A DNA stretch of 64,000 bases, from positions 434,001-498,000 of the forward strand of contig NZ_JAFKCU010000003.1 in NCBI RefSeq assembly GCF_017254845.1, read 5' to 3'. The translations under genes and the position numbers were made by a program. Shown piece by piece: positions 25,602 to 47,548 of this stretch. How positions within the stretch are numbered: the first letter of the stretch is position 1; the number at the start of each line of letters is the position of its first letter. Under the pieces are notes generated by a model. It did no database searches. It saw only the letters and a program-made list of their open reading frames with translations, and was not told where the DNA came from. The stretch is from Algoriphagus pacificus. GTDB taxonomy: Bacteria > Bacteroidota > Bacteroidia > Cytophagales > Cyclobacteriaceae.

Positions 25602-28600
25602 TTAAGCCAACTCCCTTAAATCCACTGGAACCACTCTTGAAACTCCTGCTTCAATCATCGTAATACCATAGATAATATCTGTGCTGGCCATGGTTCGCTT
25701 ATTATGGGTGACAATAATAAACTGGGACTCTCCGCTAAAGCGCTGGATAATCTGGTTGAACTTATCAATATTGGCATCATCCAGCGGCGCATCCACCTCA
25801 TCAAAAATACAGAAAGGCGCAGGCTTCAGCAGGTAGATCGAAAAGAGTAGGGAAGTGGCTGTCAAGGTCTTTTCCCCTCCGGAAAGCTGATTGATAGTCA
25901 ATGGTCGCTTGCCCTTTGGCTTAGCCATAATCTCGATAGCAGATTCCAGCGGATTATCAGGATCCACCAAGGTTAGATCGCAATCATCCTGCTCGGTAAA
26001 GAGGGAACGGAAGACCTTGATAAAGTTCTCCTTGATCTTTGCAAAAGCTTCCAAGAAGGTTTCTTTGGCCACCTGATCGATTTCTTTGATCGTACTCAGC
26101 AAGGATTCCTTGGCTTTGATCAAATCGTCTTTTTGTGTGGTGATAAAATCATAGCGAACCTTGATCTCATCATAAGCCTCCATTGCCATCGGGTTGATCG
26201 GCCCGATTTTCTCCAATTTATCTTTTTGCTTGCGCACCAGCTCCCGTAAATCATCCTCTTTGAAGTCCTGAAACTCCTCATCCAGATTTGGATTTTCCTC
26301 CATCAACTGATCCAGATCCAGTTCGAATTCCACCGAGAGACGTTCCTTCATCCCGGTCATTTTCAACTTGGTCTCATTGATGCTGTTTTGCAGTTCATGC
26401 AAGAGTTCATCATGCATTTCCTTGCTCTTCTGCAGGCTGCGGATCTTTTGATCTGTTTCATCGATCAATCCACGGGATGAATAATATTCTTTCTCCGCTT
26501 CCTGAACGCCCTTTTCTATGCCTTCCTTCTCTGCATAAAGCTCGATTAATTCATCGTCTTTGACCTCGTTGTTTTCCAACAAGGACTTGATTTCTGTATC
26601 CAGGTTGCTGAGTTCGGCCTGAGACTTCTCGATTCTTTCCTTCGAACTCTCATAAGCATTTTGCTTGAACTCGATCTCCTGATCCAGGCTATTAACGCGA
26701 TTGAGTTGCTGATGGTACAGGATATTTTCCTGGTTGAAAGCCTGGGACTTTTCAGAAAGCTTGGCAGATTCCTCTTCCAAAGTTTCATTAAGTACTTCCA
26801 GATCTTCATGAGCGGATTCGTATTCTGCTTTCTCCTCAAAAAGTCTTGGTTGAATCTCAGTCAGACTTTCCTCCAAGCTGGCAATTCTATCTAAAATATC
26901 CTCCCGCTTGTTGGCATTACTGCTGAGAAGTTCAGCCAGCTGTTCCTTTTTCGTGCGGACAGATACATAGTTCTGATTGATCTCGTTGATCTGTTTTTGA
27001 CTTTCTTCCAAGGCCTTTTTATAGCTGACTTCCTTTAACTTCATTAGATCCGAAAGCTTCTGATCCAGGTTGTTTCGGGTGGCAGAAACCTTCTTATTAA
27101 GGTCTTTGATCTCCTTGTCAAGCTTCTCCAGATTCTTAGCCCTACCGATTCTTTTTCCTTCGAAAAGTCCCACAGAACCACCGGAAAGGCTGAATTTACG
27201 CTTGGTGAATTTGCCGCTTTCCGAAATGAAGATGGATTCGTTATCCTCTGGAAAGTCCTTATGATCTCCCTGCACGATGTAGACATTATCCAGGATAAAG
27301 TTGATCAGACGGGAGTATTTCACGTCAAACTCGATAATTTCCGTAGCAGCAATAGCATTGGAAAAGAGTTTGGTCTGAGAAGGCTTGAAACGCTCAAAAT
27401 GCTCCAGTACGAAGAAATTGGCTTTGCCTCGGGCAGTATCAGAAAGCAGGTTGATCGCAGTGATGGCCTGTAGTTCAGTCTCCACCACATAATAATTCAT
27501 ATAACCCTCCAAGTAATTCTCGATCGTCACCCGGTATTTTTCATCCGTGGTCAGAAGGTCGGATAGGAGTGGCACATCCTTGCCCCAGGAGTTGTTTTTC
27601 TTCAGGAATTTGATGGCTTCAGGGAAACCTTCCAGATTCTCTACAAGGGACTTGGTGAGGTTGTATTCGTTTTGCTTGGAGTCCAGCTTACGGGAAGAGG
27701 TGGTGAGTTCCTCGCGGATCATTTCGATCACACGATTGGTCTCCTCGATCTTTTGATCCAGATCCTCCTGCTTGGCTTTCATTACTTCGAAAGCTTGGGT
27801 AGCTGTATCCAATTCGGCTTTCAGTTCGATCAGCTTTTCCTCAAAATCCACCAAAGAAGCTTCTTGAGAGGAATCATCGGAAGAAGTTCTTTCCAGTTCC
27901 TGCTTCAGCGTGGAAAGCTGGATTTGCTTGATTTCCTGCTCCTTTCCGAGTTGATAAACCTTTTCCTTCAGTTGCTCAAAGGAAGCGGTTAAAGTCTTTT
28001 GTTTGAGTTGATGCTCCGAATGAACCTGCTTTTGACTTTCGTAGGCATCCCGAAGTTCACCGACGATCAGTTCCTTTTCTGCCAACATTTTGGCGGCAGA
28101 TTCCTGCTCGTGCTTTAAGGAACGAATTGAAAAACCCGCACGATCATTGGATTTACGATCAGCATCGATTTGCTCACGAAGCTTTTGGGAACGATCTTCC
28201 AAGAAGCGCAAACGCTCGTTTTTGATTTTCTTTTCCGACTCAAAGGTTCGGATTTTATTCACATGATCGTTGAGTGTCTTTTGGCGAGAAGCCAGAAGTT
28301 TTTCCTTTGTGATCAAGTCGGCTTTCAACTGATTTAGCAAAGCCTCCTTATCCGTCATCTGCGTTTGGATTTGCAGCTTTCGATCACTTTCCTCTTGGAT
28401 CTTCTGGTTAGTAGCCAGTAGAGCAGCGGTATATTTTTCTATGCTTTTCTTGGCCAGATTGATACTGGCAACTTTGTATTCCTTCTTGATTTCGAAGTAT
28501 TTGGCAGCCTGCTTAGCTTGCTTTTCCAGACTCTTCAGGTTCTTCTCGATCTCATAAAGTAGATCTTCCACTCTTGCCAAATCCCCATCTGTATCCTCAA

Positions 28601-29141
28601 GCTTTCGCAGGGTTTCTTTCTTGCGGTTTTTGAATTTGGAGATACCTGCTGCTTCTTCGAAAAGATCCCTTCTGGAGTTGTTTTTATCATTCAGCAACTC
28701 GTCAATCATCTTGAGTTCGATGATGGCGTAGGAGTTGGAATTGATCCCCGTATCCATAAAGAGGTTGGTGATATCCTTCAGACGGCAGGTGACTCCATTG
28801 ATTTGGTATTCACTTTCTCCCGAGCGATAGTAGCGACGGGTGATGGTAACATGGGTGTATTCAGTAGGAAGGAGGTTTTTGGTGTTTTCGAAAGTAAGGG
28901 AAACCTCGGCCAGATTGGATGGTTTACGGTTTTTGGTACCGTTGAAAATCACGTTTTCCATCTTGTCCGAGCGGAGCATCCGGGTTTTCTGTTCACCCAA
29001 AACCCAGCGGATTGCATCGACGACATTGGACTTACCGCAACCATTTGGACCGACCACACCTGTGATTCCTTTGTCAAAATGAATCACCATTTTATCCCCA
29101 AAACTCTTAAACCCTTTGATCTCCAGCTTACTGAGCAGCAT
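25602..29141 (-). CDS. smc: chromosome segregation protein SMC
   Basis: 1179 aa, the usual full length. Walker A GVVGPNGCGKSNVVDAIRWV near residue 30. Two long coiled coils (about 170-500 and 670-1010) flank a hinge at about 510-640. Signature LSGGEKTLTATSLLF and Walker B PAPFCIFDEVDAPLDDANI near the C-terminus. Forms the dimeric ATPase that compacts and segregates the chromosome with ScpA/ScpB. Monocistronic here; scpAB are not in the window. A decayed copy of its last codons lies 3 kb downstream. Confidence 0.98.
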   Translation of the reverse strand: MLLSKLEIKGFKSFGDKMVIHFDKGITGVVGPNGCGKSNVVDAIRWVLGEQKTRMLRSDKMENVIFNGTKNRKPSNLAEVSLTFENTKNLLPTEYTHVTITRRYYRSGESEYQINGVTCRLKDITNLFMDTGINSNSYAIIELKMIDELLNDKNNSRRDLFEEAAGISKFKNRKKETLRKLEDTDGDLARVEDLLYEIEKNLKSLEKQAKQAAKYFEIKKEYKVASINLAKKSIEKYTAALLATNQKIQEESDRKLQIQTQMTDKEALLNQLKADLITKEKLLASRQKTLNDHVNKIRTFESEKKIKNERLRFLEDRSQKLREQIDADRKSNDRAGFSIRSLKHEQESAAKMLAEKELIVGELRDAYESQKQVHSEHQLKQKTLTASFEQLKEKVYQLGKEQEIKQIQLSTLKQELERTSSDDSSQEASLVDFEEKLIELKAELDTATQAFEVMKAKQEDLDQKIEETNRVIEMIREELTTSSRKLDSKQNEYNLTKSLVENLEGFPEAIKFLKKNNSWGKDVPLLSDLLTTDEKYRVTIENYLEGYMNYYVVETELQAITAINLLSDTARGKANFFVLEHFERFKPSQTKLFSNAIAATEIIEFDVKYSRLINFILDNVYIVQGDHKDFPEDNESIFISESGKFTKRKFSLSGGSVGLFEGKRIGRAKNLEKLDKEIKDLNKKVSATRNNLDQKLSDLMKLKEVSYKKALEESQKQINEINQNYVSVRTKKEQLAELLSSNANKREDILDRIASLEESLTEIQPRLFEEKAEYESAHEDLEVLNETLEEESAKLSEKSQAFNQENILYHQQLNRVNSLDQEIEFKQNAYESSKERIEKSQAELSNLDTEIKSLLENNEVKDDELIELYAEKEGIEKGVQEAEKEYYSSRGLIDETDQKIRSLQKSKEMHDELLHELQNSINETKLKMTGMKERLSVEFELDLDQLMEENPNLDEEFQDFKEDDLRELVRKQKDKLEKIGPINPMAMEAYDEIKVRYDFITTQKDDLIKAKESLLSTIKEIDQVAKETFLEAFAKIKENFIKVFRSLFTEQDDCDLTLVDPDNPLESAIEIMAKPKGKRPLTINQLSGGEKTLTATSLLFSIYLLKPAPFCIFDEVDAPLDDANIDKFNQIIQRFSGESQFIIVTHNKRTMASTDIIYGITMIEAGVSRVVPVDLRELA

Positions 29142-29302
29142 TCTATTTTGTTAATCTGAAATAAGGAACAAAATAAGATCATTTGGCAGATTGTCCAAGG
29201 ATTTGCACAATCTAAGGGCATTAAAATTGAAGAGTAACTAATTCAATTGAATTCAAATTATTCTAATTAGAGAAGTATTGTTTTTTGAAGGTGCGGGAGG
29301 AG

Positions 29303-29612
29303 GACACAGCAGCGAGGTGTGCGTGAGGTAAGTGCGGATGTAGCTTTGCTGTGTCTTGATTTTTTGGTCCTTTTGTATCAAGACAAAAGGACATGAAATA
29401 AAATTAAACAAAGGCATTATCTATCTAATGATCTTTATTTATCTGTCACTTTTGAAACCAAAAGTAACCAAAAGTTTTCTCCCTAAACTCTCCTTCAAAT
29501 CGGCCAGGTATTTGGGTTGAAATTTCATTCCGTTTCGATTTGATTTTTTCACTTTTGAAAATCCTAAAAATCAATGGATCCCCGAAACAAGTTCGGGGCT
29601 AATTGATTTTCT
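29303..29612. repeat. composite inverted-repeat element in long intergenic region
   Basis: GACACAGCA (29303-29311) pairs with TGCTGTGTC (29347-29355). GTCCTTTTG (29367-29375) pairs with CAAAAGGAC (29384-29392). CCCCGAA (29580-29586) pairs with TTCGGGG (29592-29598), inside an outer ATCAAT/ATTGAT pair. Direct copies of ACCAAAAGTAACCAAAAG occur near 29460. Nothing coding is visible in 29142-29824. Such blocks recur across Bacteroidota intergenic regions, from memory. Confidence 0.6.
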
Positions 29613-29824
29613 TAACGGATTTCCATGCAGTTCATAAACCGGATAGTTTAAGGGAGTTACTCCAAAAAACGAATGTGATTCAATTGAAATTGAAAAATTT
29701 CTTAAACCACTTCTAGACTTCGTCTTCTCTCAGTCCGACAAAGAATCCTTAACCAACAAATTCAACAAACAACTAACAAGCTTCCAACCTCCTTCTTTTC
29801 AAAAAAATCACGTAACTTCCCTAT

Positions 29825-30322
29825 ATGGATTTAGGAAACATACTTTACCTGGTGGCAGTCATTGGATACTTCATTTACCAAATGACCAAAAAGAAAAATC
29901 CTGTTGATGCTGATCAATCAGGGGATCTACCGGAGCAGAAAAAGGAGCGTCCTGTGACTTTTGAAGACCTGATGCGGGAAATCCGTGAAGCGCAGAAGCC
30001 TCAAAAACCAAGAGCTCAGCCACTTCCTCCTAAGCCTGAACCAATCAAAGAAGAGTATACGCGCCCAGATCCGGTTTTTCAGAGAAGATCAGAAAAGCGG
30101 GATGATGATGAGATTTCATATTATGATGGAGCATATGAAAAAGCCAAAACAGCTGCAGAAAAGGCTGTTCCGATTTCTGAATTGGAGTTTACCGATATCG
30201 GTCTAAAAGCTTATGGAAAGCGGGAAGTTCAGGAAAACCGCTATGCAAAATTGATGAAGGATCCGCAGTCTGTGAAAGATGCTATTGTGCTTTCTGAAAT
30301 CCTCAATAGGAAGCATTTTTAA
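29825..30322 (+). CDS. hypothetical membrane-anchored protein
   Basis: 165 aa. One N-terminal transmembrane segment (NILYLVAVIGYFIYQMT), then a long charged, Pro/Lys/Glu-rich cytoplasmic region (KPQKPRAQPLPPKPEPIKEE), then a short C-terminal helix-rich block that looks conserved (YAKLMKDPQSVKDAIVLSEI). That ending resembles small proteins of unknown function frequent in Cytophagales. No partner is evident; the next gene starts 84 bp later. Confidence 0.65.
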   Translation: MDLGNILYLVAVIGYFIYQMTKKKNPVDADQSGDLPEQKKERPVTFEDLMREIREAQKPQKPRAQPLPPKPEPIKEEYTRPDPVFQRRSEKRDDDEISYYDGAYEKAKTAAEKAVPISELEFTDIGLKAYGKREVQENRYAKLMKDPQSVKDAIVLSEILNRKHF

Positions 30323-32677: not shown

Positions 32678-33169
32678 TTCCCCCTTTACAAAGGGGGCAG
32701 GGGGATTTTTCAAAATTTTCTAAATATTAAGTATGTATTTTTTACCCTATAACCGCTCTTTGAAGGAATATTCTAGAGAATTAAGATCTCATTCAACTTT
32801 ATCGGAAATTTTACTTTGGCAAAAGCTAAATGCTAAACAGTTTCGAGGTTATACTTTTAATAGACAAAAGCCAATAGGAAATTACATAGTAGACTTTTTT
32901 TGCAAAAAATTAGACTTAGTGATTGAAATAGATGGTAGTTCCCATTTTGAAGATGATAAAATCATAAAGGATGAAGAAAGACAGATGATTTTGGAGAAAA
33001 TGGGACTTAGTTTTTTTAGAGTTTTGGACAATGAAGTTAAAAGGCAAATGCCTTTTGTATTAAATTCTTTAAATGAAGTAATTAATCTGATAGAAGATCA
33101 AAAAGGGATAGAAAGGACAAAATTCAAATGAGATTTAATCCCCCTTGCCCCCTTTTAAAAGGGGGAGTT
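32678..33169. mobile_element. candidate miniature element: DUF559 nuclease gene between hairpin-forming inverted repeats
   Basis: Left end TTCCCCCTTTACAAAGGGGG followed by CAGGGGGATT (32678-32707). Right end AATCCCCCTTG followed by CCCCCTTTTAAAAGGGGGAG (33138-33169). The right end is the reverse complement of the left apart from one 1-bp indel and about two or three substitutions. Each end can also fold on itself (CCCCCTTT/AAAGGGGG). Only the 399-bp DUF559 gene lies between, leaving 25 bp and 6 bp of spacer. Whether the unit moves is inference. Confidence 0.6.
32733..33131 (+). CDS. DUF559 (Vsr-like) endonuclease
   Basis: 132 aa. A short helical lead is followed by the PD-(D/E)XK-like core typical of DUF559: FRGYTFNRQKPIGNYIVDFF (Asp54) and LDLVIEIDGSSHF (Glu65, Asp67), then LSFFRVLDNEV. 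A Glu in TLSEILLW (Glu25) completes the usual set. Related to very-short-patch repair nucleases; most DUF559 proteins have no defined role. Enclosed by the inverted repeats described for 32678-33169. The surrounding bases are AT-rich. Confidence 0.85.
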   Translation: MYFLPYNRSLKEYSRELRSHSTLSEILLWQKLNAKQFRGYTFNRQKPIGNYIVDFFCKKLDLVIEIDGSSHFEDDKIIKDEERQMILEKMGLSFFRVLDNEVKRQMPFVLNSLNEVINLIEDQKGIERTKFK

Positions 33170-46089: not shown

Positions 46090-47548
46090 CTTCTTATTTT
46101 ATTTTGTACTTGAGTTGTTGGGGATTTTCTTTCTCATCATCAGTTTTTCGGTTATCGTCATTTACTTGACGACCATGTTTTTGAGCGCCTTGGAATTGAG
46201 AGATCATTTGAGGAGAAACCGATTTGCAGATTATCAGGATATTATTACTTCACCTATTGCTCCCGGAGTTTCCATTATAGCACCAGCCTATAATGAAGGA
46301 CAAAACATTGTGCAGAATGCCAAAAGCCTTATGTCACTTCATTATGGAAAATTTGAAGTGGTGATTATTAATGATGGCTCGAAGGACGATACATTAGAAA
46401 AACTGATTGAGGCTTTTGAATTGGAGAAGACCAATTACGCCTATAATTATCAAATCGACTGTAAGCCAGTTAGAGGAGTCTATAAATCCAGAAATAGATC
46501 ATACAGCAAATTACTGATCATAGATAAAGAAAATGGAGGAAAGGCTGATGCCCTAAATGCAGGTATCAATGTGTCTTCCATGGAAATTATCGCATGTATT
46601 GATGTGGATTGTATCCTTTCTCATGAATCAATCACAAGGATGGTTCGTCCATTTATGGAGGAAACTAATAGAAAGGTAATTGCCGTAGGTGGAGTAATCG
46701 GGATCGCCAATAACTGCGATGTACAAGACGGAACTGTAACAAAATATAGAATCCCAACCAGTCTCTTGGGAAGATTTCAAGTCATTGAATACTTCCGTGC
46801 CTTTTTGATGGGCAGGATGGCCTGGACTCGTGTCAATGGTTTGATGTTAATTTCCGGAGCTTTCGGTTTTTTCAATCGAGACCTGGTTTTGGCAGTTGGG
46901 GGATATTTCCCGAAAACTGTCGGGGAAGATATGGAGCTCGTCGTGAGAATGCGAAGATACATGGAGGAGCAAGGAATAGCCTATAAAGTTGGCTTTGTAC
47001 CAGATCCATTGTGCTGGACAGAAGTACCTGAAGATGAAGCCGTTCTTAAGCGTCAGAGAAATAGATGGATTAGGGGAACTATCGAGACATTGCAGCTACA
47101 TAAAGCCATGCGTTTTAATCCAAAATATGGCGTTTTAGGGATGCTTTCTTATCCTTATTGGAGTGCTTTTGAGAAGTTCGCACCAATCATTGAGTTGGTT
47201 GGGGCTTTGTATACTTTTACTTTAATAGTGATTGGGGATTTCAGTGCATTTTATTTTATCGCACTGTATTCTATGCTTTACCTTCTGACACTTTTGGTTT
47301 CATCATTTAGCATTCTATATGAGCAAGTCGCATATAATAATTACAAGGATAAAAAAGACTTGAGAAAGCTGATTCTTACTGTACTTATTGAGCCATTTAT
47401 CATTCACCCCAAAGTGGTTATGTGGGGTCTCCAAGGACATATTGATTTTATCAAAGGTAAAGGTGGCTGGGGACAGATGATCCGAACTGGATTTAAAAAA
47501 TCTGAAGACAGAAAACATGTTGAAACCAATTTGAATACCGAATCATGA
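46082..47548 (+). CDS. processive family 2 glycosyltransferase (polysaccharide synthase)
   Basis: 488 aa. N-terminal transmembrane helix, then a GT2 domain: SIIAPAYNEGQNI, VVIINDGSKDDT, DxD in IACIDVDC, acceptor-site GEDMELVVRMR, and QRNRW (QxxRW). At least three C-terminal transmembrane helices follow. This set of motifs is that of membrane polymer synthases such as PgaC/BcsA-type enzymes, which make and extrude a polysaccharide from nucleotide sugars. No PilZ domain is visible. Overlaps the downstream gene by 4 bp (ATGA). Confidence 0.9.
   Translation: MYSFLFYFVLELLGIFFLIISFSVIVIYLTTMFLSALELRDHLRRNRFADYQDIITSPIAPGVSIIAPAYNEGQNIVQNAKSLMSLHYGKFEVVIINDGSKDDTLEKLIEAFELEKTNYAYNYQIDCKPVRGVYKSRNRSYSKLLIIDKENGGKADALNAGINVSSMEIIACIDVDCILSHESITRMVRPFMEETNRKVIAVGGVIGIANNCDVQDGTVTKYRIPTSLLGRFQVIEYFRAFLMGRMAWTRVNGLMLISGAFGFFNRDLVLAVGGYFPKTVGEDMELVVRMRRYMEEQGIAYKVGFVPDPLCWTEVPEDEAVLKRQRNRWIRGTIETLQLHKAMRFNPKYGVLGMLSYPYWSAFEKFAPIIELVGALYTFTLIVIGDFSAFYFIALYSMLYLLTLLVSSFSILYEQVAYNNYKDKKDLRKLILTVLIEPFIIHPKVVMWGLQGHIDFIKGKGGWGQMIRTGFKKSEDRKHVETNLNTES

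Follow-up and report, generated by a model that had tools for sequence, protein, structure and literature searches.

The window analysed here, a stretch of 64,000 nucleotides from Algoriphagus pacificus, carries at 32733..33131 on the forward strand a DUF559 endonuclease-like gene encoding 132 aa, located between two open reading frames (ORFs) that a preliminary description of this DNA had named GT39 and WYL. The protein is assigned to DUF559 by Pfam PF04480 (E 8.6e-29, 100 bits against a curated cut-off of 20.6), and at an E threshold of 0.001 its Pfam matches were DUF559, MTES_1575 and DUF2726; neither the Vsr model PF03852 nor an HUH (Y1) transposase was among them, and a defence-gene library gave weak matches only. 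The protein has a solved homologue, 3hrl, and contains the residues E25, D54, E65, D67 and H71, which we take to be catalytic from the PD-(D/E)XK pattern. On the left of the gene, the hairpin CCCCCTTTACAAAGGGGG (32680..32697, forward strand) is followed by a linker CA (32698-32699) and a foot GGGGGATTT (32700-32708), giving the order CCCCCTTTACAAAGGGGG, CA, GGGGGATT. On the right, the order is AATCCCCC, TTG and then CCCCCTTTTAAAAGGGGG, with the foot GGGGGATTA (33136-33144), the linker CAA (33145-33147) and the hairpin (33148..33165), a perfect palindrome, all assigned to the reverse strand. Both hairpins were recovered by reading the sequence, by pattern matching and by a dedicated finder, and each is the stem of a predicted triplex.

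The preliminary description of a 399-bp DUF559 gene between two inverted hairpins is in agreement with the sequence and with Pfam. Its claim that the ends are near-perfect reverse complements over about 30 bp is right for the inversion and a little generous for the perfection, since the longer ungapped pair covers 47 nt at 77% complementarity and the better one 28 nt at 82%. When up to three mismatches were allowed, the hairpin pattern matched nine times in the window for 0.34 expected, a number reached by none of 100 shuffles, eight of these nine matches coming from the two ends through the counting of both strands and of shifted registers. The stricter finder, based on the stem and its mirror foot, returned both ends and one weak match at 46664, and no match in 20 shuffled windows. 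Farther to the left, the unstranded segment 32550..32600 (AAATCCTCTTAACCCTCTTTTG...AGGGAGTTGG) is by eye a probable decayed outer repeat end, resembling AAATCCCCCTNNCCCCCTT...AAGGGGGAGTTGG in relatives, and the left flank, with the left end included, is probably the relic of a complete inverted pair of about 155 bp.

One feature was missing from the preliminary description: the segment GGGGGATT next to each hairpin mirrors the purine arm and could provide the third strand of a triplex. From the outer side inward, the purine arm reads GGGGGAAA and the foot GGGGGATT, each step placing G on G, or A or T on A, which is the rule of the antiparallel purine-motif triplex. Since the foot mirrors the purine arm (8/8 triplets on the left and 9/9 on the right), each window end follows, as judged from its bases, the rule for an intrastrand purine-motif DNA triplex, that is, a purine-armed hairpin and then a mirror third strand. 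A pyrimidine-motif triplex on the C-rich strand, which would require A in the G-strand foot at each A step, was considered and set aside; at the first tail position a stem A is accompanied in the foot by T 76 times and by A 56 times, and the purine motif therefore fits better. A G-quadruplex is not favoured, as only two G-runs per strand can be read in each end. An RNA element was likewise set aside, no Rfam match having been obtained at gathering thresholds for eight loci, among which L003 represented the window.

The relation between stem and foot was then followed over 157 ends that a script picked mechanically, some wrong picks included, from 95 of 104 DUF559 loci. For the 144 ends used in the covariation test (13 were dropped, their tails being too short), stem and foot covary: 214 of 246 tail positions fit, for a mean of 115.6 and a maximum of 141 over 2,000 permutations of the feet among ends, a permutation that takes no account of relatedness among ends. 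Very different stems still obey the mirror rule across lineages, as seen in strings chosen by hand from Pseudanabaena (12/12 and 10/10), an Algoriphagus-type methylase insert (10/10), Neisseria (9/9), a Nitrospirae element with two differing ends (9/9 at both) and an alphaproteobacterium (7/8). The linker frequently has 2-3 bases; other lineages have a longer linker, with the look of a small hairpin of its own. If the triplex reading is right, the stem-foot covariation across phyla would mean that a DNA triplex has been preserved by natural selection.

The association of such ends with DUF559 is not particular to the window. In a check that the preliminary description had named, inverted ends were found to flank other DUF559 genes: among 556 confirmed DUF559 loci of one genome scan, the 80 most similar to ten proteins of the genus included 64 whose flanks were inverted with a score unreached by 100 shuffles, a test of flank inversion only that does not require a triplex. 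By record labels, these loci belong to at least 11 phyla. Among the neighbouring ORFs of the same 80 loci, inverted flanks were found at 9 of 221, two of these nine sharing a flank with DUF559. An independent draw within the phylum, consisting of 30 loci (the best match of each top genome, out of 296 genomes of the phylum), gave 19/30 for DUF559 against 2/23 for neighbouring ORFs; neighbours lacking 250 bp of flank within the locus were left out of both counts. The pairing is specific to DUF559, Vsr genes of the same 296 genomes having inverted flanks at 0 of 29 loci after the contig-edge locus L278 had been left out of the 30 drawn for all Vsr tests. The flank test failed at 16/80 and 11/30 DUF559 loci. 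In the latter set it failed for two copies in leucyl-tRNA synthetase (LeuRS) genes, L238 and L241, where 49 and 100 of 100 shuffles reached the score, and for L258; the copies L246 (MetH) and L237 failed narrowly (1/100 shuffles).

The stem and mirror-foot finder detected an end on at least one side at 59/80 loci of the scan, 16/22 loci of the genus and 28/29 loci of the phylum draw, and on both sides at 27/80, 8/22 and 22/29, respectively; it detected none at the 29 Vsr loci and none in the shuffled flanks of any set. The locus L251, kept in the flank test of the phylum draw, was left out of the finder and orientation counts, and the 22 genus loci exclude L019, L023, L024, L027, L029 and the partial matches L033-L037. 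A control rule with an unreversed arm passed at 31/80, 9/22 and 27/29 loci. Near-symmetric arms are expected to pass this control, and the phylum set, where the mirror rule is barely better (28/29 against 27/29), therefore does not separate the two rules. Orientation is biased: of 79 free DUF559 genes that have an end on either side, 62 have their two feet directed inward, 7 outward and 10 in mixed directions; among 24 in-frame copies, the feet point inward on both sides in 10 and outward in 6.

The distribution of DUF559 is patchy, with matches in 31/60 genomes of the genus and 170/296 of the phylum, and with its Escherichia coli member ycjD in 3364/5426 genomes. Relatives of the window protein at 1e-5 were present in 39 of 72,556 plasmid records and 2 of 50,697 phage records, and phage or plasmid cargo was rejected as an explanation on these few matches, to which a remote-homology search might add some. 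Chromosome-sized records are filed as plasmids in PLSDB, namely NZ_OL790696.1 (4.8 Mb, E. coli) and NZ_CP119142.1 (2.2 Mb, N. gonorrhoeae).

The type of end is inherited together with the nuclease. On a quick tree of 103 DUF559 proteins (125 columns, 41 of 99 inner branches open), end type required 27 changes against 58.1 for shuffled labels, and none of 200 shuffles was as low; 20 rows without one clear end type were counted here as a label, the typed rows alone giving 16 changes. In one starred clade of 16 rows, the 14 labelled rows are all of the C4TCC type, and according to record labels the clade spans Bacteroidota, Melainabacteria, Cyanobacteriota, Pseudomonadota, Thermodesulfobacteriota, Spirochaetota, Calditrichota and Bacillota. 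The DUF559 gene and its ends appear to travel as a whole. Counter to this co-inheritance, a genus clade of 13 DUF559 rows contains 9 without a clear end type, and L001, found in the window's own genome, belongs to that clade. The DUF559 of L040, from a contig labelled as a Spirosoma fluviale metagenome-assembled genome (CAMCBC010000109.1), is identical over the tree columns to that of the genus genome G007, which suggests a misplaced contig.

Purifying selection acts on the nuclease and on its near-invariant, presumably catalytic residues: E25, D54 and E65 are present in 103/103 DUF559 proteins, D67 and H71 in 102/103, and dN/dS lies between 0.04 and 0.21 in 8 of 10 pairs, dS being saturated in the other two. 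Near-invariant residues and low dN/dS together indicate that the nuclease has been kept working.

The ends also occur without the gene, as the preliminary description had anticipated: non-autonomous copies are found singly, in inverted pairs and in arrays. Of the four full ends in the window's genome, two are at the window locus, and one solo copy is L008. The strict full-end pattern was found in 51 of 73 genomes of the genus, and the reversed pattern in none of the 73. The arrays have a period of about 185 bp (L227), and at several loci, L030 and L227 for example, the DUF559 gene lies between two complete inverted-pair repeats. The proposal of a unit made of the gene and two ends holds for the pairing; it is too simple for these loci. 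The array L227 (G065:C73) comprises eleven ends with a DUF559 gene inside, in the gap before the ORF of G065 that matches the window ORF at 29825; the corresponding gap of the window (29142-29824, between a 1179-aa ORF at 25602-29141 and the ORF at 29825) holds no repeat.

The number of repeats is linked to the presence of DUF559. Over 60 genomes of the genus, the median number of full ends is 8 in those to which we assigned a DUF559 of the window type (n = 13), against 2 in those without any DUF559 match (n = 29; p 1.7e-4), a link that weakens to p 0.004 when the gene's own two ends are subtracted. Full ends persist in 17 of the 29 DUF559-less genomes, with up to 12 in G034.

Presence and absence were compared at orthologous sites, beginning with the window site, which the preliminary description had asked to be checked for empty alleles. 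The WYL gene was found in 70 of 73 genomes of the genus and 30 WYL loci were fetched; the site is not fixed, DUF559 being present in three (G000, G001, G066) and not seen in 27. By eye, G018 has at this site seemingly a decayed lone repeat only, and in G044 (L120), a close relative, the same intergenic site ahead of the WYL gene is occupied by different palindromic repeats in tandem, of the GTGCCGTAGGCAC and GTCCCTATGGGAC types; a clean empty site with a target duplication was not found at these two loci.

Conserved genes have also received the element in frame. A methylase gene of the genus contains DUF559 and translated repeats in 3 of 13 readable orthologues (17 were fetched) and is empty in the other 10. 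Two orthologues of the methylase of L023, L212 and L221, have in the same variable loop another small palindrome, of the CCCTCCAAGGGTT...AACCCTTGGAGGG type, also in frame, which makes this loop a possible hot spot of such insertions. Of the 150 DUF559 matches listed in the phylum draw, 34 fall within open frames that are 600 aa or longer, compared with none of the 90 strongest of the 100 Vsr matches listed; the ten weakest Vsr matches were left out, and one of them (E 5e-6) lies in a 717-aa frame. For ten proteins with an in-frame DUF559, Pfam identified as hosts LeuRS (twice), MetH, HsdR, HsdM, several DNA methylases and a PurL-like C-terminus; one of these ten genes lies on a cyanobacterial plasmid. 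In both LeuRS copies (L238, L241), which belong to two Bacteroidota genera, the DUF559 domain is in frame in this essential enzyme and adjoins the editing domain. The open frame runs continuously through host, repeats and DUF559 at the in-frame loci, and no intron or intein was seen. By eye, L245, L249 and L258 share one HsdR site, a sharing that may reflect descent or homing, and L243 (HsdR by Pfam) is inserted elsewhere. Taken together, the filled and empty sites and the in-frame insertions show that the unit has been mobile in evolutionary time.

The E. coli K-12 DUF559 gene, ycjD, has a full repeat only downstream, and this repeat follows the mirror rule at 10/10 triplets. The 3364 positive E. 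coli genomes given above are those in which one place covers 80% or more of a 561-bp query containing ycjD and the repeat downstream of it; at 80% coverage, ycjD (sapF-ycjD-fabI locus; L155, L154) went undetected in roughly two fifths of the complete E. coli genomes. In one ycjD-less strain the locus is rearranged, efflux (RND) and TetR genes preceding fabI, and does not offer a clean empty site. In a sample of 60 records spread down the ranking, further matching places had a median of 17 with ycjD (n = 37) against 5 without (n = 23; range 1-17), a difference (p 1.2e-8) that is uncorrected for phylogeny and for which the best place of each record was inspected (it was a repeat in the ycjD-less rows) and the other places were assumed to be repeats. 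A coarser search with long exact words showed, by eye, no clear difference between E. coli genomes with and without ycjD. Versions with and without the repeat exist at both yihR-yihS and rhaA-rhaD. The junctions are not clean: at rhaA-rhaD about 17 bp of the empty-site sequence appear by eye to be replaced, the alignment at yihR-yihS is not clean either, and no target-site duplication was found at either place.

Repeats of this kind are the BoxC/PIT/TM repeats described by Holder et al. 2015 (PMC4666352), who trace knowledge of the triplex-forming BoxC/PIT repeats back to the 1990s. In that paper, the E. coli repeat is reported to form a triplex in vitro by CD and NMR, and the triplex was not detected in vivo by DMS footprinting in E. 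coli; MG1655 is given 23 repeats, five inverted pairs among them, and a related pattern is reported in 262 proteobacterial genomes. The same source ties triplex repeats to instability in E. coli, cites an earlier study in which the E. coli repeat had neither promoter nor terminator activity and, in the passages concerned, states that mobility activities were never found near the E. coli repeats. DUF559, which Pfam still lists as a protein of unknown function, is named in a 2026 study as a PD-(D/E)XK, Vsr-like class (PMC12907096). That study describes a Caulobacter DUF559 protein, VsrA, which triggers DNA-damage (SOS) responses in the absence of a cytosine methylase and is proposed to perform VSP mismatch repair; the terms triplex, palindrom and inverted repeat are absent from the main text of that study. 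DUF559 is classed as an EDxHD homing type in a cyanobacterial genome paper (PMC9403480). Among the papers listed for DUF559 together with palindromes or inverted repeats, and for the triplex repeats by name, in literature that was largely outside subscription journals, none was seen that joins DUF559 to these repeats.

The window locus belongs to DUF559 by its gene and, by the base rule of its ends, to the intrastrand-triplex repeats; it is neither a RAYT nor a Vsr locus. The same DUF559-repeat pairing in many phyla suggests that DUF559 is the agent of the repeats, the one missing behind a long-known spreading family. On balance we think it probable that the locus is a copy of a widespread system in which the nuclease spreads its own predicted-triplex repeats, similar to REP/RAYT and built of unrelated parts. 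The self-spreading unit proposed in the preliminary description comes out favourably from every check it had named; that DUF559 itself moves the repeats is what we infer from these comparisons. In a possible scheme, the repeat would turn single-stranded during replication or repair, DUF559 would recognise the folded end and cut at or near it, and repair of the break or nick would install a copy of the repeat, or of the gene that two repeats enclose, at another location. The nuclease would maintain and spread its own repeats in the manner of RAYT transposases acting on REPs, the enzyme being unrelated and the DNA fold a different one. We give about even odds to the broader view that DUF559 and intrastrand-triplex repeats together make up a single class of self-spreading DNA spanning bacterial phyla, whose nuclease would read a three-stranded fold at the element ends, carry its repeats along as non-autonomous copies and be able to insert in frame into conserved genes, even as a passenger domain translated in leucyl-tRNA synthetase, and whose model-organism case would be ycjD and BoxC of E. 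coli.

Several other explanations could be proposed. The most ordinary is that the hairpins on either side of this small gene act as transcription terminators or stabilise mRNA, their inverted symmetry being incidental; GC-rich hairpins are common near gene ends, and some solo copies do lie directly downstream of genes. This terminator or plain-hairpin reading was rejected, and we regard it as very improbable, because neighbouring genes mostly lack such structures (9/221), because the mirror foot, needless for a terminator, covaries with the stem (214/246) and because repeats occur within open frames; the lack of promoter or terminator activity of the E. coli repeat (cited in PMC4666352) also speaks against it. 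It is somewhat less improbable, though we still hold it unlikely, that DUF559 is a housekeeping nuclease for repair or structure processing (VSP-like, or removing triplex blocks), that the repeat regulates it or is its substrate and that the repeats are by-products of instability. The SOS induction by Caulobacter VsrA without the cytosine methylase, the VSP repair proposed for it (PMC12907096) and the tie of triplex repeats to E. coli instability (PMC4666352) agree with such a role, which accounts poorly for Vsr genes without such ends (0/29), for the patchy distribution (31/60, 170/296 and 3364/5426 genomes), for in-frame insertion into unrelated genes and for framing repeats mostly of one orientation (62/79).

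The main rival is homing into repeats spread by other means: the triplex repeats would be the target where DUF559 cuts, its gene would be copied into or between them, and the repeats themselves would spread by another process, for instance replication slippage or recombination. We consider it a real, if rather doubtful, possibility. It would explain why the gene lies between otherwise complete repeat pairs (L030, L227), why repeats are present in genomes without DUF559 and why G018 seemingly has, by eye, only a decayed lone repeat at the window site, and it is in line with the next solved relative of the protein after 3hrl (DUF559-type), the mobile intron protein 3r3p (E 0.0053). End type, however, tracks the nuclease lineage across phyla, DUF559 in conserved genes is often accompanied by its own repeats, and homing alone does not predict the higher copy number in genomes with DUF559. 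Spreading of the repeats by DUF559 is the reading we retain. Joining the spread of the BoxC/PIT repeats and the function of DUF559 supplies each question with its missing half, and both become testable in E. coli K-12 with ycjD.

Among known systems, the EDxHD homing endonucleases resemble the present one by a weak sequence relation to 3r3p (E 0.0053), which we take to be I-Bth0305I, and by nucleases inserted in conserved genes; they differ in that, as read here, the open frame is unbroken, with neither intron nor intein seen. The Vsr endonuclease (PF03852) is similar in size to the window protein, and Vsr and DUF559 share the PD-(D/E)XK fold group, but Vsr genes are without such repeats (0/29) and the window protein does not match PF03852 at E 0.001. 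The Rickettsia palindromic elements, palindromes in frame within protein genes, are like our in-frame copies; they are not known to have an associated nuclease. Closest on the side of DNA structure are the intrastrand triplex repeats (BoxC/PIT/TM-ECO), which share the C-rich stem, the short loop, the G-rich stem, the mirror G-rich third strand and the purine motif, and also the inverted pairs and the presence or absence between strains. The window stem and foot are of the CCCCCTTT type and deviate from the TM-ECO consensus CCCTCNCCC...GGGNGAGGG N3 GGGNGAGGG, and whereas Holder et al. report no mobility activity around the E. coli repeats, here DUF559 is the partner. Closest in organisation is the REP/RAYT family, with its general architecture of a nuclease gene and palindromic repeats. 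REP/REPIN-RAYT (TnpA-REP) likewise has a small nuclease gene between palindromic repeats and non-autonomous inverted pairs and arrays elsewhere, as found here, where repeats frame the gene and also occur as solo copies and as inverted pairs. The nuclease is an HUH Y1 transposase there and DUF559 here, and instead of the GTAG/CGTC tags described for REP sequences, none of which is seen in the window end, the foot mirrors the stem. If our reading is right, DUF559 and its repeats would be a second, independent solution to the REP/RAYT type of symbiosis between a genome and its repeats.
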